Positions 1,035-49,996 of a stretch of 49,996 nt of DNA are shown here, in pieces. The notes below the pieces were generated by a model. That model was not told the origin of the DNA. It did not search any database and was given only the letters and a program-made list of their open reading frames with translations. Origin of the DNA: a virus; the IMG/VR virus record IMGVR_UViG_3300023210_000050, positions 1 through 49,996 of that record; one strand, written 5' to 3'. The stretch's first letter is position 1. The number at the start of each line of letters is the position of its first letter. A program made the translations under genes and the position numbers.

Positions 1035-2003
1035 ATGAAAAGATCAGATATAAGACAGTTAATAAGAGAGGAGATCATAAAAGAACTCCGGACAAAGCTT
1101 CATGAAGCCTTTGCAGACCCGATAGCATCTAAGCTCGCGAAAATGGCTGGCATGTCCAATAAATGGAAAAACTTTTGGAGATCATCCGCTAAAACGTACG
1201 ATATAGCATGGGATAAAGTTCCAAAAGGTTCATTCAGGACAGTATCAACTAGTGATGCTGCAGCAAAAAAGGGAATGGCGTTCTGGATAGCAACATCCGA
1301 AAAAGCGACTACCAGGAGTGGCTATTCTTGGGATAATGTCAAACCAGGAGTTGTAGCAGTTACTATCGACGGTAAGATTCAATATTTTGCCGGTTCAGGT
1401 GGTATTGGATCGAAAGGTTCTATGGGAGCTAGAAGAAGAGGTGAGCCTGTAGGCCAAGGGAAGCGAGGTACTTTACAATATAAAAAACTACCAGAATATT
1501 CAGACATTGTCTATATATTTGATTTGGAATCATACCGCGGCGGAACTAAAGAATTAAAAGCTAAGAGAGCTAAATTGCAATTAGGTAAAGATGTCTTTAC
1601 AGATCCAAAGGCATGGAAAAGAGCAAACCTACAAAGATATCATGATATGATTGCAGATAAAATAGGCACCAAAGGTAAAGTAGAAAAGATGACTGCTGAA
1701 ATTGTAAAATGGGCCAACGAAGCAATTATCGATGCTATGGGTCTGCAGAAAACAACTGAATATGGCGATATAGAAGCTACATTAGCTGGTAATGCTGTGA
1801 AGATGGATGATGTGACTCGTTACATGTCAAATGCATTACAAGCCTTCTCTCGTTATATACAATCCGAAAATAGTCAAGCAAAACATGCAAAGAAATATCC
1901 AGAGTATGCAGCTGATTCATATGAACTAGGCGCCATGAAAGAAAAAGCAATGGATATTAAATCTATTCATGATCAATTCAAAAAAGGCAAGTTTAAGTGG
2001 TAA
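1035..2003 (+). CDS. putative head-packaged protein, 322 aa
   Basis: The first 24 residues form a charged amphipathic helix (MKRSDIRQLIREEIIKEL...) ending in L-H-E before Ala25. The same layout recurs on five other proteins here and fits a capsid-targeting peptide cut by a T4 gp21-type protease (consensus L/I-x-E). The remaining body is basic, with a Gly-rich stretch near residues 120-145 (GSGGIGSKGSMGARRRGE) and a helical C-terminal half. I do not recognise the fold. An ADP-ribosyltransferase like T4 Alt is imaginable by analogy, but no R-S-E triad could be assigned. GAAGG precedes the ATG, and a strong terminator follows at 2032-2060, so this is probably a monocistronic late gene. Confidence 0.8.
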   Translation: MKRSDIRQLIREEIIKELRTKLHEAFADPIASKLAKMAGMSNKWKNFWRSSAKTYDIAWDKVPKGSFRTVSTSDAAAKKGMAFWIATSEKATTRSGYSWDNVKPGVVAVTIDGKIQYFAGSGGIGSKGSMGARRRGEPVGQGKRGTLQYKKLPEYSDIVYIFDLESYRGGTKELKAKRAKLQLGKDVFTDPKAWKRANLQRYHDMIADKIGTKGKVEKMTAEIVKWANEAIIDAMGLQKTTEYGDIEATLAGNAVKMDDVTRYMSNALQAFSRYIQSENSQAKHAKKYPEYAADSYELGAMKEKAMDIKSIHDQFKKGKFKW

Positions 2004-6880: not shown

Positions 6881-7279
6881 ATGGAAAATAAGGATCTACG
6901 AGAGAAATTAAATACGATTATTAAAGAAGAGATTAATAACGTTTTAGTTGAGCGCACATATAAATACGGTGGTTTGCTCGACCCTAAAAACTTCGACCCG
7001 ATAGATCCGGAAATTCATGTTGCTGGATATGGAACGTTAGCTAGATCCATACTACGTAACGAGATTGCTAAACGATTAGAAGGAACTGCCAGGACAGCCA
7101 AAACAGCTGCCGCTGGCGGAACTGGATCGTATCGGATGTATAAAAATTTAATTGCTGATCTTGAAGATAAAAGTCTTTTGAATCAATTTATACAAGCCGA
7201 AGTGGAAGTTGCCCAGCAGCTAGAAGATATACGAACTAAAGGTGGTAGACGTTCTACTCCAATCCCGAGGCAGTTTTAA
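6881..7279 (+). CDS. putative head-packaged protein, 132 aa
   Basis: The N-terminus (MENKDLREKLNTIIKEEINN...) is an amphipathic helix ending L-V-E at residue 24, followed by RTYKYGG. This matches the recurrent targeting-plus-cleavage pattern of this window (L/I-x-E, as cut by T4 gp21). After cleavage a basic 108-aa body would remain, with ARTAKTAAAGGTGSYR in the middle and RTKGGRRSTPIPRQF at the end, suitable for DNA contact. No family is recognised for the body. It lies 1 nt behind the histone-like gene. Confidence 0.8.
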   Translation: MENKDLREKLNTIIKEEINNVLVERTYKYGGLLDPKNFDPIDPEIHVAGYGTLARSILRNEIAKRLEGTARTAKTAAAGGTGSYRMYKNLIADLEDKSLLNQFIQAEVEVAQQLEDIRTKGGRRSTPIPRQF

Positions 7280-7281
7280 TC

Positions 7282-7884
7282 ATGGGACAGGGATACCAAG
7301 CAGCTAAAAAATTAATTGCACAGTTAAGAGCAAAAACTTATCGTAAATTAGACGATGATGAGCTTCTAGAATTCCGTAAAGAAATGATAGAACATCTCGG
7401 AGGTACATTAAAAGAATCAATTGATGAAGCGCTCGATCATAAAATAGAAGCCATCGAAGATTCAATCCTTTCTGGATTAGCCGAGATGTTAGGAATGAAA
7501 AAATCGAAATTATTTAATGATATCATTCGAATGAATCCGATACCGGCTCGCGACTTATCAAATCTAGCTAAGCATTTGAAACCAGTACTGGATGGTATGA
7601 ATGAGGGTTCGATCACACGATATAATCAAGGTGATGATATAAGCCTATTAGCTCGAGAGGTTGCTAAGATAATAGGTATTAATCTAGATCCAGCAGAATT
7701 CTATGAGTACTTGCATGACTATTCTAGAGATAAGCTGTATGGCGAGTATGGTTTAGATGCGGATGAATTAGAGGTGTTAGAGGATGCGTTTGCTGAGATT
7801 GAACAAGAAGCTGTAGGACAAACTAACATAAACACAAGTAAAGTCAAAGCTACAGAATTATATAAACAGTATATAAAGTATTAA
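7282..7884 (+). CDS. hypothetical helical protein, 200 aa
   Basis: Starts 2 nt after the preceding stop and ends 1 nt before the next start, so it is sandwiched between two putatively packaged proteins. The sequence is helical and charged throughout (KLIAQLRAKTYRKLDDDELLEF, LEVLEDAFAEIEQEAVGQ), without TM segments or catalytic motifs. It lacks the N-terminal targeting peptide of its two neighbours. A scaffold or head-associated role is an inference from position. Confidence 0.8.
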   Translation: MGQGYQAAKKLIAQLRAKTYRKLDDDELLEFRKEMIEHLGGTLKESIDEALDHKIEAIEDSILSGLAEMLGMKKSKLFNDIIRMNPIPARDLSNLAKHLKPVLDGMNEGSITRYNQGDDISLLAREVAKIIGINLDPAEFYEYLHDYSRDKLYGEYGLDADELEVLEDAFAEIEQEAVGQTNINTSKVKATELYKQYIKY

Positions 7885-7885
7885 G

Positions 7886-8398
7886 ATGAAAAAATCCGAA
7901 CTTAAAAAAATTATTAACGAAGAAGTTAACCGAGTATTAAAAGAATATACCGACCATGACTTCTCCGGCCGAAGCTTGACATCTAAAATTAACAAACCAG
8001 ATATGTTCGGTCAACAAGCATTTGATGAATTATTTCCATTGGGGTCTAGAAGCGAGAGCAAGGCTTTACAAGCTTTAAAGGCACATGATAAAAGTCCTAT
8101 CAAAGCAAGAATGGGGAGGTATGCTCCGATGTTTGTACATGTTCAATATCATGAGTTTGAAGATGAAGCTGGTGAGAAATATTCGGTACATCAAAGTCAA
8201 TATTACAATTCGAACTTCAAAGATAAAGAACCGGATTTCAATCCATCCGTGACAGTGCTAACATTGACAAAAATGGCCGATCCGGATAATCCATCACCTC
8301 AAGGCAAAAAAGATCAAAAATTAGGACAGATGATTGTTAAGACTGATGAGTATATTAAGGATTTAAAAGGTCTAAATATTTCCAAGCGTAGTTCATAA
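7886..8398 (+). CDS. putative head-packaged protein, 170 aa
   Basis: The N-terminus MKKSELKKIINEEVNRVLKE is the cleanest example of the recurrent peptide: charged helix, I-I-x-E-E, then L-K-E at residue 20 before Tyr21. Processing would leave a 150-aa mixed alpha/beta domain with a Tyr/His-rich part (MFVHVQYHEFEDEAG, SVHQSQYYNSNFKDKEP). The fold is not recognised. It is the last gene of the unit; a class 1 promoter follows at 8409. Confidence 0.8.
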   Translation: MKKSELKKIINEEVNRVLKEYTDHDFSGRSLTSKINKPDMFGQQAFDELFPLGSRSESKALQALKAHDKSPIKARMGRYAPMFVHVQYHEFEDEAGEKYSVHQSQYYNSNFKDKEPDFNPSVTVLTLTKMADPDNPSPQGKKDQKLGQMIVKTDEYIKDLKGLNISKRSS

Positions 8399-14408: not shown

Positions 14409-14446
14409 GCTTTGGTTTTTTGATAAAAAAACGTTATATTAAGTAT
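14394..14446 (+). promoter_or_regulatory. class 1 promoter, copy E, overlapping a terminator
   Basis: AAAAAAGCTT, then TTTGGT (14411-14416), an 18-nt spacer and TATATT (14435-14440). The -35-like box shares its first bases with the terminator stem. If transcription starts 7 nt after the -10, the first base is the A of the ATG at 14447, giving a leaderless message. Confidence 0.6.
14396..14421 (+). terminator. short AT-rich terminator-like hairpin
   Basis: AAAGCTT (14396-14402) and AAGCTTT (14407-14413) pair around AATT, followed by GG and six T. It spans the stop codon of the upstream gene. The stem is weak (one G-C and one C-G pair), so efficiency is doubtful. Confidence 0.5.
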
Positions 14447-15058
14447 ATGAGTTTATATGATGAAAAACCAAAGAAAGAAACTAACATAGACATACTCCCA
14501 GAACCTGTCTATTCAAATGTATCAGAGCAATTAGCTACCCAAATGGATTTTACTGATTCTGTCATCTATTTATCTGATGATATTACAGAAACTACATTGG
14601 CTGATTTAATGATTAGGATACGGAGCATTCTACATCAACGTACAGATACATCTAAAGATGATCCTATTAATATTATTATTAATTCGGCAGGTGGAGATAT
14701 CTATGAGATGTTAGGGATTATCGATTATATTGAAACGTTGTCCGTGAAGGTTAATACAATATGCAGAGGAAAAGCTTTCTCCGCGGCAGCGATAATATTA
14801 GCATGTGGAACTGGTGCTCGTATGATTAGTAAACGGTCATCGGTTATGTTCCACCAATCATCTAGTATGTTGGATGGTAAAATGAGCGACTTAGAATCGT
14901 ATTTAACAAATGTAAAAAATATAGAAAATACAGTTTATGAATTATTAGCCGAGAGGACGAAGAAGGATGCAAAATGGTGGAGTGACCATATGAAGTCCGA
15001 TTTCTTTATCTCAGTTGATAAATTAATTGAATATGGAGTAATAGATCAAATAATATGA
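14447..15058 (+). CDS. clpP: ClpP-like serine protease
   Basis: A 203-aa ClpP/crotonase-fold peptidase. Catalytic residues appear in the correct blocks: Ser112 in GKAFSAAA, His136 in MFHQS and Asp185 in KSDFFIS. The Ser-His and His-Asp spacings are within one residue of E. coli ClpP. The glycine-rich strand INIIINSAGGDI (74-85) is also typical. ClpP forms tetradecameric barrels fed by ClpX or ClpA; a phage copy could redirect host proteolysis or process virion proteins. A TTG nine codons upstream (14420) is possible, but the ATG fits the promoter. The stop overlaps the next ATG, opening a four-gene coupled operon that ends with the late sigma factor. Confidence 0.92.
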   Translation: MSLYDEKPKKETNIDILPEPVYSNVSEQLATQMDFTDSVIYLSDDITETTLADLMIRIRSILHQRTDTSKDDPINIIINSAGGDIYEMLGIIDYIETLSVKVNTICRGKAFSAAAIILACGTGARMISKRSSVMFHQSSSMLDGKMSDLESYLTNVKNIENTVYELLAERTKKDAKWWSDHMKSDFFISVDKLIEYGVIDQII

Positions 15059-15825: not shown

Positions 15826-16109
15826 TGGAATATATAATAATATCATTAAGTTTACTATCAACTATTTTATTAATCACGGTCTTACGTTTAATGAAACGAG
15901 TTGAAGCAATGGAAGATTATGTCAACGAAGTGGAACAATCTAATGATGAATATTTTAAATTTTTCTCGGGATTGAAAACTAGAGTAACTGATTCATATTC
16001 ACATTTAAAGAATATAGACCGATTAGGTTCTTTCGAAAGTGATGATGAAACTGGTTATATTTATAAAGAGCTTAAAAAAATAATAGAAGCACTAAAACAA
16101 GGATTTTAA
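15825..16109 (+). CDS. small membrane-anchored coiled-coil protein, 94 aa
   Basis: The N-terminus is one hydrophobic helix (YIIISLSLLSTILLITVL, residues 3-20), followed by a charged helical region rich in Glu and Lys that could form a coiled coil. This is the layout of a type II anchored protein with a cytoplasmic or periplasmic coil. No family is recognised. It overlaps the HD hydrolase stop and the sigma factor start by one base each (TAATG), so it is translated within the same operon. Confidence 0.8.
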   Translation: MEYIIISLSLLSTILLITVLRLMKRVEAMEDYVNEVEQSNDEYFKFFSGLKTRVTDSYSHLKNIDRLGSFESDDETGYIYKELKKIIEALKQGF

Positions 16110-16864
16110 TGTCAGCAGTTGAAAAATTTTATGTATGGTTAGAAGCAGAGCAATCTAAAATCGAACCAAAAAAGAGAGGCCGGAAGCCTAGTAAAAAACA
16201 ATATTTTACATTGGTTGCGCAAGAAGCTATTATTGCATACAATCTAGAAACAGATCAGATGCTACGTAATAAAATTTACAAGGAACACATTGATTATCCT
16301 TTTAATAAATTAGTAGAAAATATATACCATACATTTAAATTTAGTTATTTCGATGTACCATATGAAGATGTTAAATGTGAAGTAGTTGCATTTCTTAACG
16401 AAAAGATTCATAAGTATGTTGATGGGAAGGGTAAGGCATTTTCTTATTTTTCTATAATAGCTAAAAATTATCTCATCATTCAAAATAATGCAAATTATGC
16501 AAAAATGAAACGTAGAGCCGAGCCAGTACTTATCGATGAATCGCGTGATCTAACATCTGAAATGACTTTATCTTCACATCAAGAATCGTTAAGAGATTTT
16601 GTTAAGCAGTGGTGCAAATGGTATGATGCTAACTTGAATTATATATTTACTACTCGTCGCGATATTGTAGTAGCCGATACATTATTAGAATTATTTCGTA
16701 CGGTAGAGAATATAGAAGAATTTAATAAAAAGGCATTATATATCTTAATACGAGAACGAACCGGATTAAAAACTCAGAATATAACTCGAGTTATAAATGT
16801 AATGAGAGCTGATTTTGCTCGTATGTTCATAACTTATTCAGAAAACGGCCGTGTACAATACTAA
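16109..16864 (+). CDS. gp55-like late transcription sigma factor
   Basis: A 251-aa divergent sigma factor of the T4 gp55 type. The central block, VPYEDVKCEVVAFLNEKIHK, and GKAFSYFSIIAKNYLI (about residues 116-131) match the region 2-like segment, where Tyr/Phe-rich 'G-K-A-F-S-Y-F' touches promoter DNA. The N-terminus has an AT-hook-like KKRGRKPSKK (residues 21-30), unusual for gp55 and suggestive of minor-groove binding to AT-rich promoters. gp55 directs host RNA polymerase to late promoters together with the sliding clamp. The TATTTATA motifs of this window are its probable targets. Last gene of the clpP operon. Confidence 0.85.
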   Translation: MSAVEKFYVWLEAEQSKIEPKKRGRKPSKKQYFTLVAQEAIIAYNLETDQMLRNKIYKEHIDYPFNKLVENIYHTFKFSYFDVPYEDVKCEVVAFLNEKIHKYVDGKGKAFSYFSIIAKNYLIIQNNANYAKMKRRAEPVLIDESRDLTSEMTLSSHQESLRDFVKQWCKWYDANLNYIFTTRRDIVVADTLLELFRTVENIEEFNKKALYILIRERTGLKTQNITRVINVMRADFARMFITYSENGRVQY

Positions 16865-16879
16865 AATCTAATATCCTTA

Positions 16880-16887
16880 TATTTATT
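16880..16887 (+). promoter_or_regulatory. late-promoter-type motif TATTTATT
   Basis: TTATATTTATTTAAAAGGG: the motif ends 18 nt before the ATG at 16906 and opens the baseplate block. Confidence 0.55.
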
Positions 16888-16905
16888 TAAAAGGGTTATT
16901 AGATT

Positions 16906-17319
16906 ATGAGTAATGATTTTGAACTATTTAAGGGCACGTCGTTTGCCGATCTCATGAGGGATGTATATCATAATTCGAAAAAGAAGTCACGACAAATCGA
17001 TTCGTTGATACAAGAACTACAACCGTTAATGAAAAACATAGGCGATGCAACTGTCATCGTACCACTCATTAAAGATTATTTAGAAGTATCTGTTAAGAAT
17101 GATGATGCATTAGTAAAGTTAGCAGCAATCGTACAGCGGATAGTTTCTTCGACTAGCGATGAAGATGGAAATGAATTTGGTATTTCTGATGAGGAGCGGC
17201 GACGATTAATCGAGGAAGCGGAAGATGAAATTAAAAAAATAAAAGCATCAGAGCCGGCCGAAATCAAAACAAATACAATTAAAGAAATAAAGGATTCTGA
17301 TGGCACAATTCGTAGCTGA
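16906..17319 (+). CDS. hypothetical helical protein ahead of the spike gene, 137 aa
   Basis: Helical and charged, with RRRLIEEAEDEIKKIKASE near the C-terminus and no TM segment. It overlaps the spike gene by 20 nt and shares its late promoter, so a role in baseplate or spike assembly is likely from position. In marine T4-like phages a small helical protein often precedes this gene; the family name is not known to me. Confidence 0.8.
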   Translation: MSNDFELFKGTSFADLMRDVYHNSKKKSRQIDSLIQELQPLMKNIGDATVIVPLIKDYLEVSVKNDDALVKLAAIVQRIVSSTSDEDGNEFGISDEERRRLIEEAEDEIKKIKASEPAEIKTNTIKEIKDSDGTIRS

Positions 17320-18667
17320 AGTTATATCTGATAAGCCGGGGTATGGAAATGCTGCATCGGCTATTAAAAATGTAGCTACATCGTTCCTAGGCGGAGGTAC
17401 TATCCCAATTGGAACAGTAGAATGGGCAGCATCAGCCGATCCGACAATACCAGCAGCGACTGGTTTTGCAGCGCCTTTACTTCCATGGAGTACTAGCATG
17501 CCCGTCGAGGGAGAATTTATATTAATATTTTCAGCACCATCACCAACCCAAACCCAAGGTGATAGTGTCGCGGAATCATTTTTCTATTTAGGACCTATAG
17601 GAATTGATGGCGATAAAAATAAAAACTCCGCTGCAGGGTTCATGAATCGGTCAGCAGTTGCGGGTATCCAGATACCACCGATACATAAAATGTCATCGAA
17701 GCAGATGCCACCATTCCAGCCATTACAAGGTGATACTCTTATACAAGATCGAAATGGTTCTTGCATCCGGATGTCAAGTACTCATCACCCGTTAGCATCT
17801 AAAGCAGGGAAAAAGGCTTTATGGAAACGACCGGGGTTTATACCACCTAAGGTCGGACCATCGTTTACACCAGGTGCAGCAGGTAACCCTATAATGACAA
17901 TCACCGTTGGACCGCAAGGAAATGCAGTTGATGTTTCAACAGCTGTAGGATCATTTACCGGTACGAAGACTTTATTTGAAAATTTAAACAAGGCAAAATC
18001 GGATAGGTCTACTATCGTAATGTCATCCGATCAACAGATCACGTTTGACCATCAACGTGGAAGCTGGAAACATTTAAAACAGATATTTTCCAAGCCGCAG
18101 AAATTTTCAACCGATGGGGCGGATGCTCAAGCTCGAGGCGCGAAGGCATATGGAGAGCAAACAAAGACTGCTACATATGAAAATCCACAACAAGGTACAG
18201 GATTTGCGCCAGTACCGTCATATCCCGCCTCTCCAACATCACCTGCGGTATCACAAATTATATTGACATCTGATCGTATTGTAATAGATTCGCGTGCAGA
18301 TTCTGTTTTGATTAGTGCCATGAGAGATGTGAAAATCGGTACTAAAAATTGGAGAATGGAAACTGATTCCACTATGAGTGTAATTCATGAAGGAATCAAA
18401 CAGACATTAATTCTTACTCAACACGTACAGGAGGTGGCCAAACAATTAGATGATACATTGGCTATTTTAGAAAAGATACAATTCCCGACCGGAGTTGGAC
18501 CAACAGGGCCCTGTTTAGATACTTACTTTTCAGAAATAAAAGAAGTCCGGAAGACCTTGACGGCGACACGAGACAGTTCCGTCAAGCGTTCCGACCAATT
18601 TCAAATATTATCTGATGAATTCATTAAACAGAAACGAAGTCCGAAAGATCAAAAAAAGGTATTCTAA
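17300..18667 (+). CDS. baseplate central spike-like protein (gp5 type, no lysozyme)
   Basis: The N-terminal 180 residues show an OB-fold-like stretch closing with PLQGDTLIQDRNGSCIRMSS (about 142-161), a pattern I know from phage spike and hub proteins ('GD-x-x-x-x-x-R-x-G-x-S-I-R'). The later part (SDRIVIDSRADSVLISA, then DVKIGTKNWRMETDS) has the short-period strand repeats of a spike beta-helix, followed by a helical C-terminus ending SPKDQKKVF. There is no lysozyme domain, unlike T4 gp5. It would sit at the tip of the tail tube and pierce the outer membrane. Its stop overlaps the next ATG. Confidence 0.75.
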   Translation: MAQFVAEVISDKPGYGNAASAIKNVATSFLGGGTIPIGTVEWAASADPTIPAATGFAAPLLPWSTSMPVEGEFILIFSAPSPTQTQGDSVAESFFYLGPIGIDGDKNKNSAAGFMNRSAVAGIQIPPIHKMSSKQMPPFQPLQGDTLIQDRNGSCIRMSSTHHPLASKAGKKALWKRPGFIPPKVGPSFTPGAAGNPIMTITVGPQGNAVDVSTAVGSFTGTKTLFENLNKAKSDRSTIVMSSDQQITFDHQRGSWKHLKQIFSKPQKFSTDGADAQARGAKAYGEQTKTATYENPQQGTGFAPVPSYPASPTSPAVSQIILTSDRIVIDSRADSVLISAMRDVKIGTKNWRMETDSTMSVIHEGIKQTLILTQHVQEVAKQLDDTLAILEKIQFPTGVGPTGPCLDTYFSEIKEVRKTLTATRDSSVKRSDQFQILSDEFIKQKRSPKDQKKVF

Positions 18668-20861: not shown

Positions 20862-21308
20862 ATGAGTAAGAAATCATTTGTACAGTTATTACGAAAAATT
20901 ATTAGAGAAGAAGTTACTACTGCCGTGCGCGGTGAAATGCGGGCAATTTTAAACGAGGGTAAGACAGACCACTTTAAATCTATCGAGCATGGTCTGAGTT
21001 TACATGATATGATAGATGAGCCTGTTCCGGTCCGTAAACCTAAAACGCGTGAGTATTCTAAAAATTCAATGTTAAATGATATATTGAATGAAACGGGTCC
21101 TTTGCGTGAAAATGCAGCAGGAAATACTATGAATTTTAATTCACAGATGGCTCAAGGATTTGCTGGTAATCCAGCTGTTGCACCGACAGTTGACCTAGAA
21201 GGAAGACCTGTAAATACTAGTAATGAAAAGGTTGCTACTGTTGTTAATGCAATGACAAAAGATTATTCCGCATTAATGAAAGCAATCGACAAGAAAAAAG
21301 GCAAATAA
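20862..21308 (+). CDS. putative head-packaged or structural protein, 148 aa
   Basis: Two ATGs are possible (20856, 20862); the second has the right 6-nt gap to AAAGGA and gives MSKKSFVQLLRKIIREEV. The N-terminal helix (I-I-R-E-E-V) matches the recurrent peptide and reaches I-L-N-E at residue 32 before GKTD, a good L/I-x-E processing site. A second candidate is LNE-T near residue 80. The body is polar and probably unfolded in parts (FNSQMAQGFAGNPAVAP). It lies between baseplate genes, so the peptide may be used for something other than head targeting. Gap to gp25-like gene is 5 nt. Confidence 0.75.
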   Translation: MSKKSFVQLLRKIIREEVTTAVRGEMRAILNEGKTDHFKSIEHGLSLHDMIDEPVPVRKPKTREYSKNSMLNDILNETGPLRENAAGNTMNFNSQMAQGFAGNPAVAPTVDLEGRPVNTSNEKVATVVNAMTKDYSALMKAIDKKKGK

Positions 21309-44711: not shown

Positions 44712-47480
44712 ATGAGTTTAGGAAATTGGTTAGCAGAAGCTATACTTTCAGAAAGTAATATTAAAGATATAATCGTTATCTACCCTGGCAGATTTCAGCC
44801 AATGGGTAGGCACCATGCCGAGGTATACAAAAAATTGGCAGCAAAATACGGAAAGTCAAATACTTATATTGCAACTTCCAATGTTGTAAAATTACCAAAG
44901 TCTCCTTTGAACTTTCGTGAAAAAGCAGCAGTAATGAGACAACATGGAATTACCAATGTAGTGCAAGTTAAGAATCCTTACCAAGCAGCTGAAATAACTT
45001 CCAAGTACGATCCAGAAACTACCGCGGTATTATTTGCAGTTGGTAAAAAGGATATGGAGGAAGATCCGAGATTTCGTATAGGAACAAAAAAGAATGGAGA
45101 GCCAGGATATTTTCAAGACTATGAAAAAAACCAAGGTAACCTCCTGCCATATAGTAAACATGGTTATTTAGTTGTAGCACCTCATGTTGATATTCAGATT
45201 CCAGGATTCGGTGAAATGTCAGGAACAACCTTACGAAAAGTGCTAGCAACTGCAGATGCAAAGATATTTAAAGACGTGATGGGATTTTCTAATCCACGAC
45301 TCGCTGATCTATTAAAACAAAGATTTTCTGCAGTGATGGAAGAACAGATAAATGAATTCATTATAAAAAATGATATACAGAAACTGATATCAGAGACATC
45401 ATATGTAAATGGTTCCAAAGCTGATGTCGATGATGGCCCTAGATACTTCTATGGTAGCCAGAAGGCATATGAAACAGATTCAAAGACCATGGCAGAATCA
45501 ATAGGTTATTCCGTATTAAATTATATTATGGACGGTGGTATGTCAGATCTAGGCAAGACTAGTTTCCCTGATGGACCTCCCATGGGAGTTTCATTCTTCC
45601 CTGTAGGTATGGCCGGAGCAAAAATGGCCGGGACAGATTATACAGGTGATATAAAAGGAAAACCGGCATATAAAAAATGGCAAGGCTATATAAAAAATGT
45701 TGCTACTCAAGTCGGATATAAATTCTTAAACTTCCTAGGAGCAGAAGATTCAATTACTAGTACAAAAAATGCACCTTCTACACCCGGTCCATTAGTCCAA
45801 GAACAAATTCAAGATAAAGCATGGTGGGCAGATATTATGGAAGACATTACCATTCCAGTAAATATCGGAGATACAGTATTAATGGGCAAGTTTAAAAACA
45901 AGAAAGTAGTTGTTAAGAGTATTACTAAGAATGAAAAGGGTGATCTTCAAATTAATGGCAGACCAGCTTTAAAGTTTAGAATTCCAGTAAAACCAGATGA
46001 ATCCATTAATGAAGACATAACTAGTTATATAAAAAAATTATCAGATAAATTCAAATCGTTTATACAAAAATTAAAACAAGAAGGCTCAGAAACAAAACAA
46101 GCTTATCAGTTATTGGTTAAGGCCATACATGGAGAATCATTAACAAAAGATCAAAAAACCGAAATAGGTAACCAGATGAAAGATGTATTGAAATTAGCAG
46201 GATTTACAGCAGCATCAATATTACCTGGCGGGATTATTTATTTACTATTAACTAAAGTAACTAGATTACAAAAACATTTAGTGCCATCTGCATTTATGTC
46301 TGAGGGTATACTCGACGAAGCAAAGGCCAATACACATTTAACTCATTTAGAAGAATTAGTTTTAACACAAGGAGATGCTGGTTATAAACAAGCCAGAGAA
46401 GTTCTTATTGAACTTATTAAAAATTTAAAAGGTAATTCAAATGCAAAAGTTAATACTACGGTTAAATGGGATGGAGCACCTGCCATATTTACAGGAATTA
46501 ATCCTGATAACGGCAAATTCTTTGTAGGAACAAAGTCCGTATTTAATAAAGAGCCTAAGATTAACTACACGGATGAGGATATTGAACTCAATCACGGACA
46601 TGCACCCGGCTTAGCAGATAAACTTAAAAAAGCATTACAAGTTCTTCCGGCCTTAGGAATACAAAATATACTTCAAGGTGATTTCATGTTTGATGATTCG
46701 ACATTAAAATCTCAAAGTATTGACGGTGTTAAACATTATATATTTAAACCAAATACAATTACGTATGCAGTTGAAGTAGATTCAGATTTAGGTAGAGAGT
46801 TAGCAGCCGCCGAATTTGGGATAGTATTTCATACAGCATACAAAAGTTTAGATTCCGGAGCTGAATTTGGAGCTAATGTTTCTGGCCTGAATCGTACACC
46901 TGGTGTTTGGTTTGATGATGCATTCTTTAAAGATACCACCGGTAGTGTGTTGTTAACAAATGATGAGGCTAAACAAGTAACTAGTTTAATTAAATCAGCT
47001 GATGCAATAAATGTTAATTATGATAAATTACCATCTGTATTATTAAATACGTATATCAATAGTGAAATTAGAACAAACCAATTCCTGGATAATCCTAAAA
47101 AATCATTTGAAACATTTAAAACATGGGTTCAGAGTAAGCTAGATAAAAGAGTAGATAAACTAAAATCGGAAAAAGGTAAACAAAAAGCTATTGCCGCCGG
47201 TGAAGCACAAATGGCTTCTATAGAAGATAATAGCCAAGATATAATCGGAGTATTTAATTTAACTAAACTATTAGCAGAAGCGAAATTAGTATTTGTGAAT
47301 AAGTATAATAACGCTATTTATAATACCAAGCATTTCGTAGATGATGGCAAAGGTGGGTTACGTGTTTCAGCCCCAGAAGGTTATGTTGCAATTGATAGAT
47401 TTGGGAATGGTGTTAAGTTAGTTGATAGATTAGAATTTAGCCGAGCAAACTTCGCAATGGACAAGGGATTTACTAAGTAG
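44712..47480 (+). CDS. multidomain nucleotidyltransferase / LETM1-like / KxDG ligase-like protein, 922 aa
   Basis: Four parts. (1) Residues 15-200: nucleotidyltransferase fold of the NMN/cytidylyltransferase type with GRFQPMGRHH (26-35) and MSGTTLRK (169-176). (2) Residues 230-370: unknown domain (YFYGSQKAYETDSKT, SFFPVGMAGAKMAG). (3) A KOW-like stretch (375-425) and a LETM1-like helical part (435-530: LTKDQKTEIGNQMKDVLKLA, PGGIIYLLL). (4) Residues 537-922: the DUF6267-type domain, with VKWDGAPAIF (584-593), Lys585 being the probable AMP-accepting lysine of the ligase/capping superfamily, and LQGDFMFD (654-661). L/I-x-E sites (LAE9-A, ISE228-T, INE433-D, LDE536-A) fall at the ends or domain borders, so it may be cut by the prohead protease and packaged. 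The ligase part is complete in length. Confidence 0.83.
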   Translation: MSLGNWLAEAILSESNIKDIIVIYPGRFQPMGRHHAEVYKKLAAKYGKSNTYIATSNVVKLPKSPLNFREKAAVMRQHGITNVVQVKNPYQAAEITSKYDPETTAVLFAVGKKDMEEDPRFRIGTKKNGEPGYFQDYEKNQGNLLPYSKHGYLVVAPHVDIQIPGFGEMSGTTLRKVLATADAKIFKDVMGFSNPRLADLLKQRFSAVMEEQINEFIIKNDIQKLISETSYVNGSKADVDDGPRYFYGSQKAYETDSKTMAESIGYSVLNYIMDGGMSDLGKTSFPDGPPMGVSFFPVGMAGAKMAGTDYTGDIKGKPAYKKWQGYIKNVATQVGYKFLNFLGAEDSITSTKNAPSTPGPLVQEQIQDKAWWADIMEDITIPVNIGDTVLMGKFKNKKVVVKSITKNEKGDLQINGRPALKFRIPVKPDESINEDITSYIKKLSDKFKSFIQKLKQEGSETKQAYQLLVKAIHGESLTKDQKTEIGNQMKDVLKLAGFTAASILPGGIIYLLLTKVTRLQKHLVPSAFMSEGILDEAKANTHLTHLEELVLTQGDAGYKQAREVLIELIKNLKGNSNAKVNTTVKWDGAPAIFTGINPDNGKFFVGTKSVFNKEPKINYTDEDIELNHGHAPGLADKLKKALQVLPALGIQNILQGDFMFDDSTLKSQSIDGVKHYIFKPNTITYAVEVDSDLGRELAAAEFGIVFHTAYKSLDSGAEFGANVSGLNRTPGVWFDDAFFKDTTGSVLLTNDEAKQVTSLIKSADAINVNYDKLPSVLLNTYINSEIRTNQFLDNPKKSFETFKTWVQSKLDKRVDKLKSEKGKQKAIAAGEAQMASIEDNSQDIIGVFNLTKLLAEAKLVFVNKYNNAIYNTKHFVDDGKGGLRVSAPEGYVAIDRFGNGVKLVDRLEFSRANFAMDKGFTK

Positions 47481-47515: not shown

Positions 47516-48010
47516 ATGAAAGAATTAGAATTGCGTACAATGATACGTGGACATGTAAAAAAAATTATAAAAGAAGCCGGACCAAGCTTAGGTGCAGGTG
47601 CAGGTGAATTAGAAAGAGGCTTAGGTAAAATAAGTGCTCGTGCTAGCAAATTATCAAAACGTCAGAGAATAAAGGCAGTCATACCAGTATTGCAAAAATT
47701 TGGAATAGCTCCAAATGACATGGCGTATTTAAAAGCTGCTTTGAAATCAGCAAACGGAGAAGCAACTCCAGAACCTGAAGTAGAAGAAAATTATACTGCC
47801 GGCGTTGATGACGGAAAGGTCACTGAAGGCGCTTTAGATGCTAAAGGTGATAAGCTAGAGCAGACTCAGGCATTCCAAATGTTACAAAAAGCATTAGCTT
47901 CCAAACCAGCTGGCCAGCAAGCAGAATTTGTTTTAGGGCTAATTGGTAAATTAGGAATGAAAGATAGTGCAAAGCGTAAGTTGAAATTACAAGTTAAGCA
48001 ATTAAAATAA
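47516..48010 (+). CDS. putative head-packaged protein, 164 aa
   Basis: N-terminus MKELELRTMIRGHVKKIIKE reaches I-K-E at residue 20 before Ala21, the recurrent targeting-cleavage pattern. The mature part is Gly/Ala-rich at first (AGPSLGAGAGELERGLGKI), then helical and basic (RASKLSKRQRIKAVIPVLQK), then has an acidic hinge (PEPEVEEN) and ends as a basic helix (KRKLKLQVKQLK). Function unknown; a DNA-associated internal protein fits. First of a four-gene string with 1-nt to 7-nt gaps or overlaps. Confidence 0.8.
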   Translation: MKELELRTMIRGHVKKIIKEAGPSLGAGAGELERGLGKISARASKLSKRQRIKAVIPVLQKFGIAPNDMAYLKAALKSANGEATPEPEVEENYTAGVDDGKVTEGALDAKGDKLEQTQAFQMLQKALASKPAGQQAEFVLGLIGKLGMKDSAKRKLKLQVKQLK

Positions 48011-49105: not shown

Positions 49106-49849
49106 ATGACTACTTTAAAACTAACGCCATTATTAAATGAAATAATATTTCGTACTATTATAGAATCTGTAGGTGGAGATGCCGGCAAAATAGAAAATGA
49201 AACAGATAAGCTAGAACAAGAATTAAAAGACGCCGGTACAGATGCCGACAGCGAAGAAGTACAGGCAGCTATGTTAGGAGCATTGATAGACGCAGATGGT
49301 GATGTAGAGCAGTTAGACGTTTCTGATGTAGAATCTATTGCTAAAGATATAAAAGAATCGCGTGGGTATGTTCTCACGGAAAGCGGTGTGATGATGGCTG
49401 GTATCGAGGCAATTGGTACTGTACTTGGAAATGCTGCATTATTAAATGCAATTGCTGCTAAAGTGGAAAAGATTTCTGGTAAAAAAGTTAATGTAACCCA
49501 ATTAAAAACCAAAATAGAAAAGATCACAGCCAGGATAAAAAATATCACCGGATGGCCAGCCAAAAAAATGGAACAGGCATTTGCATGGATAGCTAAAAAA
49601 TTCGGCGGTGGTGCCTTTGCACAAAAAATAGCCGGTTATGCTGGTACATTGGTAGCTGTAATAACAATGTTCATTATCGGTGTTATATACTTTCCATCAA
49701 TAGGGTCTGGCGTTTTATTTATATTTTCAATAGCCGGATTAATGGGTAAAGGTGCTGAAATGATTAAATTGGTCAAAGAAATTATACATGCTATTAAAGA
49801 AGAAATGGCAAAAAATGATCCTAGTTCGTCGCCGGAATTATCGACATAA
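49106..49849 (+). CDS. putative head-packaged membrane-active protein, 247 aa
   Basis: N-terminus MTTLKLTPLLNEIIFRTIIE ends I-I-E at residue 20 before Ser21, the recurrent pattern in a less charged form. An acidic stretch follows (DAGTDADSEEVQ), then hydrophobic segments at about 94-118 (weak) and two strong ones at about 188-208 and 210-228 (AGTLVAVITMFIIGVIYFPS, GVLFIFSIAGLMG). A packaged protein with membrane segments could be injected to act on the host inner membrane during entry, but this is inference. The C-terminus is polar. Confidence 0.78.
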   Translation: MTTLKLTPLLNEIIFRTIIESVGGDAGKIENETDKLEQELKDAGTDADSEEVQAAMLGALIDADGDVEQLDVSDVESIAKDIKESRGYVLTESGVMMAGIEAIGTVLGNAALLNAIAAKVEKISGKKVNVTQLKTKIEKITARIKNITGWPAKKMEQAFAWIAKKFGGGAFAQKIAGYAGTLVAVITMFIIGVIYFPSIGSGVLFIFSIAGLMGKGAEMIKLVKEIIHAIKEEMAKNDPSSSPELST

Positions 49850-49850
49850 T

Positions 49851-49996
49851 ATGAAAATAGATAAAGTTACATTAATATTAATTGCAATCATAATCCTTAT
49901 GTCAATAGGATTAACATACATGTTCATGAACCAATCGGATCAGGTTATCATGATACAAGATGAACAATTACAACAACGAGTTGATAGTTTATCAAT
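49851..49996 (+). CDS. N-terminal part of a single-pass membrane protein (partial)
   Basis: ATG 49851 follows the preceding stop by 1 nt, and the frame runs off the right edge after 48 codons. Residues 6-26 form a membrane helix (VTLILIAIIILMSIGLTYMF), then a polar, Gln/Asp-rich helix (DEQLQQRVDSLS) begins, suggesting a coiled coil outside. This is also the layout of an i-spanin, but the rest is missing. Confidence 0.7.
   Translation, partial: MKIDKVTLILIAIIILMSIGLTYMFMNQSDQVIMIQDEQLQQRVDSLS

Follow-up and report, generated by a model that had tools for sequence, protein, structure and literature searches.

A short peptide that opens five proteins of this viral DNA is, judging from sequence comparison, very probably a capsid-targeting and cleavage tag that loads varied proteins into the phage head, with a function like that of the T4 CTS but an unrelated sequence. 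The window, i.e. the whole stretch of DNA that was analysed, is a genome fragment of 49,996 bases and constitutes one IMG/VR record in full. A sequence-only reading had ascribed a shared N-terminal peptide to six proteins. All six open reading frames exist at the starts that it gave, that at 20862 being an internal ATG of a longest frame running from 20856, and their L/I-x-E ends fall at residue 24 (LHE in the protein starting at 1035, LVE at 6881), residue 20 (LKE at 7886, IKE at 47516, IIE at 49106) and residue 32 (LNE at 20862). The claim of a shared peptide held for 1035, 6881, 7886, 20862 and 47516, for which the family consensus is MKKSELxQIIREEIxKxLxE, and failed for 49106. The scores below are those of an HMM of the tag.

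1035..1106, + strand: tag of gene 1035-2003, MKRSDIRQLIREEIIKELRTKLHE; HMM 22.9 bits; predicted cut after residue 24.
6881..6952, + strand: tag of gene 6881-7279, MENKDLREKLNTIIKEEINNVLVE; HMM 18.5 bits; predicted cut after residue 24.
7886..7945, + strand: tag of gene 7886-8398, MKKSELKKIINEEVNRVLKE; HMM 32.4 bits; predicted cut after residue 20.
20862..20957, + strand: tag of gene 20862-21308 (start could be 20856), MSKKSFVQLLRKIIREEVTTAVRGEMRAILNE; HMM 16.3 bits; predicted cut after residue 32.
47516..47575, + strand: tag of gene 47516-48010, MKELELRTMIRGHVKKIIKE; recognised from homologues and from the orthologue in contig G013; predicted cut after residue 20.
49106..49165, + strand: claimed tag of 49106, MTTLKLTPLLNEIIFRTIIE; not confirmed; HMM -3.8 bits.

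The core helix pattern of the tag occurs at five N-termini in the window, against 0.08 expected from its rate inside the same window's proteins. As this pattern had been written from the window proteins themselves, an independent test was needed, and the HMM was therefore built only from the tagged proteins of other viruses. Just 2 of 9,691 internal 45-mers reached 10 bits with this HMM, and no N-terminus of Staphylococcus phage K, SPO1, crAss001, T4, Syn9 or Melnitz scored above 6 bits. The protein starting at 47516 was weak (4.7 bits), but its orthologue in the IMG/VR contig G013 was strong (23.6 bits). From the independent scores and the results for internal segments and control phages we conclude that the predicted tag is real on five window proteins. 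Chance likeness among short helical N-termini of an AT-rich genome could supply some of the endings, as L/I-x-E occurs at residue 17-34 in 19 of the 59 window proteins. However, as an explanation of the peptide it is barely credible in the face of the five core matches, the independent scores of 16-32 bits on four window proteins and the finding that no control-phage N-terminus exceeded 10 bits; it is refuted for five of the six N-termini and kept for 49106. L-x-E by itself was rejected as evidence of a tag because it is too common, and the informative signal is the helix motif and the site together.

We do not count 49106 as a sixth carrier because of its negative score and because its syntenic neighbour in G013, which opens similarly (MATLKLKDLLKE), has no L/I-x-E at residue 20. 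A pattern scan for relatives of 49106 returned none. The window protein (49106-49849) consists of an acidic N-terminal stretch, L-T-E at residue 92 and a hydrophobic part that is probably membrane-inserting. The syntenic gene of G013 (gene 2809) is alike in plan, with LKE at residue 68, ahead of the hydrophobic part. If the 49106 protein is cut, the LTE at residue 92 is at least as plausible a site, and the protein might belong to the head and carry a long propeptide.

We scanned IMG/VR at the DNA level for the pattern M-K-K-S-x-L-K/R-x-x-I-K/R-E-E-I/V, from which the cleavage site is absent. The scan found at least 120 stretches, and the tag heads at least 83 distinct proteins in other viral contigs, several of which carry two or three copies among the matches listed. 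Among the 83 proteins listed, [LIVM]-x-E is present at residue 17-34 in 72 (70 with [LI]) and a clear site is missing in 11; in 50 of the 72 site-bearing proteins listed it lies exactly at residue 20. When residues 15-34 were shuffled in 1,000 runs, the site appeared in 32.7 of the 83 proteins on average and in 46 at most, compared with the 72 observed, and windows further into the same listed proteins contained it in 22 of 78 and 16 of 69 cases. As the search pattern left the site out, its enrichment is an independent result. The alignment consensus of the tagged proteins ends with the tag, after residue 20, and what follows is diverse: among the matches listed, 78 tagged proteins fall into 70 unrelated cargo clusters, and only 4 of 79 match Pfam, one of them an ADP-ribosyltransferase family. 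PADLOC gave only weak single matches on the tagged proteins, which were not used, and NCBIfam gave none.

The same pattern run over 84,980 prokaryote genomes found three stretches, all in one uncultured bin, so the tag appears to be almost confined to phages. Occurrence of the peptide on many non-virion proteins had been named beforehand as evidence against a tag, and, outside phages at least, nothing of that kind emerged. In the near relatives G001 and G002, tags of this type are few or absent. A literature search, with subscription papers and preprints outside its scope, found no description of this tag and no virion proteomics paper on Flavobacterium phage immuto.

The tag is maintained in homologues of the window proteins with changes of sequence. 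Homologues of 6881 (L146-L149) keep the tag and its site with different residues (ILAE, LMNE), and those of 47516 (L150-L154) keep a tag that ends in LSE or LKE and is followed by AGP.LGAG or APRLGAG. The cargo of 1035, residues 36-319, is conserved in L149; no relatives of 1035 with an intact N-terminus were found, the pattern scan included, and its AlphaFold2 model, made from three sequences, had a pLDDT of 34.

The tail genes of the window match baseplate wedge families, and comparison of the gp6-like protein places Microcystis phage Mel-JY01 and immuto nearest among isolates, both of them T4-like phages with a gp23-type capsid protein. There are no head genes in the window, and an S77 protease sought throughout its 50 kb was absent; the head genes would begin just beyond its right end, with terminase, portal and S77 genes expected in the next 10 kb or so after base 49,996. 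That end is syntenic with the left end of G013, where orthologues of 44712, 47516, 48012 and 48643 (60-77% identity) are followed by a 49106-like gene, terminase, portal, an S77 protease (10,182), scaffold and major capsid protein, placing a tagged gene near terminase and portal. S77 (PF03420, at the Pfam gathering score) was detected in 10 of 16 records, including immuto, Mel-JY01 and G013 (E 8.5e-29), and S77 genes are also present in G001-G004 and G007. Among the matches listed, 21 of the 48 tagged contigs of at least 15 kb carry S77, where about 14-15 would be expected for contigs drawn at random from 160-170 kb genomes that each have a single S77 gene. The S77 match in G016, the contig of L244, lies in two pieces (16081-17616), one of which contains two TGA codons, and represents either a broken gene or recoded TGA. 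A ClpP-like gene of the window (14420-15058), which PHROGs labels as head maturation protease, is kept in the syntenic contigs G011 and G012; we rejected it as the head protease because in this phage group a true S77 gene adjoins the capsid gene, making it unnecessary.

T4 gp21 cuts after L/I-x-E (PMC9026906). In the capsid proteins of the group, AEIGG is preceded by VSE, VAE, VTE, ISE or ITE at the place where T4 gp23 has LTE, and this [IV]-x-E suggests that the group's protease takes not only L but also I or V at position -3 relative to the cut. There is also a hint of a link to the scaffold. The motif [RW][MWF]QKLAGI(I) stands at the C-terminus of scaffold or scaffold-like proteins (L123, L112, L081, L355, L318) and also at the N-terminus of cargo proteins, before L/I-x-E (in L112, L299 and L303); in L303 it is fused directly to the tag (MSKQILNEEFYRMQKLAGILIKEEIKKVLKE). 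QKLAGI, shared between scaffold C-termini and some cargo N-termini, may mark such a link.

The head region of immuto (L110-L113, NC_055915, 101-126 kb) has further features of its own. The tagged proteins of this phage are gp095, gp094 and gp080, and gp079 is a polyprotein. A second N-terminal motif, M.ENFDLKKFLVENKLTxNSxLLKE, opens three proteins encoded next to the head genes (103806, 117631, 118632); it recurs in L090 and elsewhere in immuto (L110) and is probably a second targeting tag. The scaffold protein (L112 25626-26867) contains a direct internal duplication, with EGFEQWLDSVSAQMDKFGKNNPTIQAIEKAV... present twice. Tag-like helices ending in L-x-E lie inside gp079 and gp071 (L112 14006-16531 and 23578-24660), one of them being GMKKAELKEGFKKLIKKVLSE.

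The protease site recurs in relatives between the domains of long multidomain proteins. Three features of the window bear on this.

7282..7884, + strand: untagged gene that separates the tagged genes 6881 and 7886; the N-terminal region corresponds to a polyprotein module found downstream of module A (L105, L108).
7946..8395, + strand: module A, the cargo domain that the predicted cut in 7886 would free; recurs in relatives' polyproteins.
44712..47480, + strand: probable polyprotein, with a leader ending in L-S-E (residue 14), a nucleotidyltransferase-like part, a middle module and DUF6267.

In the AlphaFold2 model of 7886, residues 1-19 form a detached helix of low confidence (mean about 54) and the folded domain begins at residue 20. 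Module A had no match at E <= 0.001 in the PDB or viral models, and no fold or function was assigned to it from structure as the matches were too weak (best VIA Z 4.4). In relatives module A is not a separate tagged gene; it is a module of polyproteins of 281 to 1,336 residues, in which [LV]-x-E always immediately precedes it and the sequences further upstream form 11 unrelated groups. Across these 11 groups position -1 is E in all 11, position -3 is L in 10 and V in 1, and nothing is shared from -4 outwards. K is also common at -2, so L-K-E could be part of module A itself; this is disfavoured because the middle residue varies at other joints (MEE, LTE, LFE, IEE, VNE, IKE). For modules A-H and X, [LIVM]-x-E occurs at the joint in 43 of 45 distinct contexts, most of the starts having been placed by eye at joints, and for modules I and J, whose starts were not set on a joint, in only 6 of 15. 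These counts supersede a boundary count from raw BLAST alignment starts (34 of 192 against 5.1), which is noisy because alignment ends drift. Modules other than A occur in differing orders in the relatives' polyproteins.

44712 is probably a polyprotein like those of the relatives. DUF6267 follows L-D-E at residue 536 (base 46319), the match beginning at residue 540, and relatives have IKE or LNE at this junction, L154 being without the middle module. In Pelagibacter phage HTVC008M, DUF6267 stands alone behind a short leader ending in LVE.

Two other roles for the peptide were weighed, and both draw on the 20862 family, which keeps the tag and has [LIVM]-x-E at residue 18-45 in 59 of 61 distinct homologues. 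20862 lies directly upstream of a gp25-like baseplate gene, and in every relative seen the family stands upstream of homologues of gp25 and gp6. It could represent a head protein encoded amid tail genes, much as T4-like phages have Alt-like genes in association with baseplate genes (PMC5512222), or be a sign of a second use of the helix. In the first alternative, the peptide would be a helix by which diverse small proteins dock onto one phage or host complex (e.g. tail or replication) and would be kept on, L-x-E then being simply the helix end. The position of the 20862 family beside baseplate genes fits this, as does the composition of the tag, which is rich in L, I and E so that the shuffles already yield some L-x-E by chance. 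However, the observed site is far above the shuffles and mostly at residue 20, the same site stands at module joints with no tag before it, and the capsid protein has a site of the same kind, making a retained docking helix improbable. Less probable still is an S77-cut propeptide that serves the tail, the baseplate or some other assembly role: although the constant place of 20862 upstream of gp25 and gp6 homologues would suit it, S77 proteases work inside T4 proheads (PMC9026906), other tagged genes adjoin terminase and portal (G013), and about 70 unrelated cargos are unlike a set of assembly factors. The reading as a capsid-targeting tag cut after L/I-x-E is in turn supported by the comparison, i.e. 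by the unrelated cargo, the near restriction to phages, the retention of the site, and the S77 protease and capsid site of relatives; all the checks capable of overturning it went its way.

The closest parallel is the T4 CTS of IPI-IPIII and Alt, a short N-terminal peptide on several proteins that ends in L/I-x-E and is cut by gp21; for the present tag the same arrangement is predicted from sequence. As in T4, an S77 protease occurs in the phage group together with a scaffold core and a gp23-type capsid protein. In T4 IPIII, 10 residues suffice for loading, and the residues for processing are separable from those for targeting (PMC9026906). The T4 CTS (MKTYQEFIAE), however, has 10 residues, whereas this tag has about 20-32 and no sequence similarity to it, and this tag occurs on at least 70 cargo families of environmental phages, some of whose domains are also found in polyproteins. 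The proposal of a tag family separate from that of T4 was borne out, as every T4 N-terminus stays below 6 bits with the HMM of the tag. It is well supported that the tag would work like the CTS while lying outside its sequence family, that it is far more widespread, and that it is coupled in relatives to prohead-protease polyproteins.

Other systems share parts of this plan. The N-terminus of phage P1 DarB holds a signal of 10-30 residues that carries the protein into the head (PMC9024508), the role proposed here for the tag, but the P1 Dar N-termini are without a consensus (PMC9024508), whereas this tag has a single clear consensus together with a protease site. Polyvalent proteins (Iyer et al. 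2017, PMC5512222) are multidomain phage proteins that are thought to be packaged and delivered and were likened there to polyproteins; their processing is credited to embedded metallopeptidase domains (PMC5512222), whereas the joints described here carry the site of a separate prohead protease. In phiKZ and SPN3US many proteins of the head, and many that are ejected, are trimmed by a prohead protease of broadly this type (PMC9026906, PMC10052503). The cleavage motifs and propeptides of those phages nevertheless differ from those of this tag. Their head proteins are cut at A/S-x-E, and to our knowledge they have no shared tag like this one. We also know of no earlier description of shuffled polyproteins in phages with a prohead protease.

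We infer both head loading and cleavage for the tagged proteins. By analogy with T4, the amphipathic helix M-K-K-S-E-L-x-x-I-I-R/K-E-E-I... would bind the scaffold core as the prohead forms, and the protein behind it would be trapped inside the prohead. A gp21-type S77 serine protease would cut after the closing L/I-x-E and release the mature protein from the core, as the conserved site and the presence of the protease suggest. The cargo would be packaged with the DNA and probably injected, i.e. delivered at infection, a step taken from T4 only. Related phages would put the protease site to a second use, with cargo domains strung together in a polyprotein that has L/I/V-x-E at its joints, and domains would move between the tagged and polyprotein formats. 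It is thus likely, though held less firmly than the tag itself, that a large environmental T4-like group combines one universal loading tag that is not that of T4 with protease-cut polyproteins of swappable small domains, together carrying an extensive and mostly uncharacterised set of virion proteins, in which domains swap formats and the protease site is the joint.

Head-delivered phage proteins are mostly unknown outside a few model systems because they have no recognisable domain in common. A tag that resembles an address label makes it possible to read candidate cargo off genome sequences. This analysis yielded at least 70 unrelated families, in which proteins for early anti-defence or host takeover may well be sought. 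In the laboratory, reporter proteins of choice could be loaded into such phages by means of the tag, as is possible with the T4 CTS.
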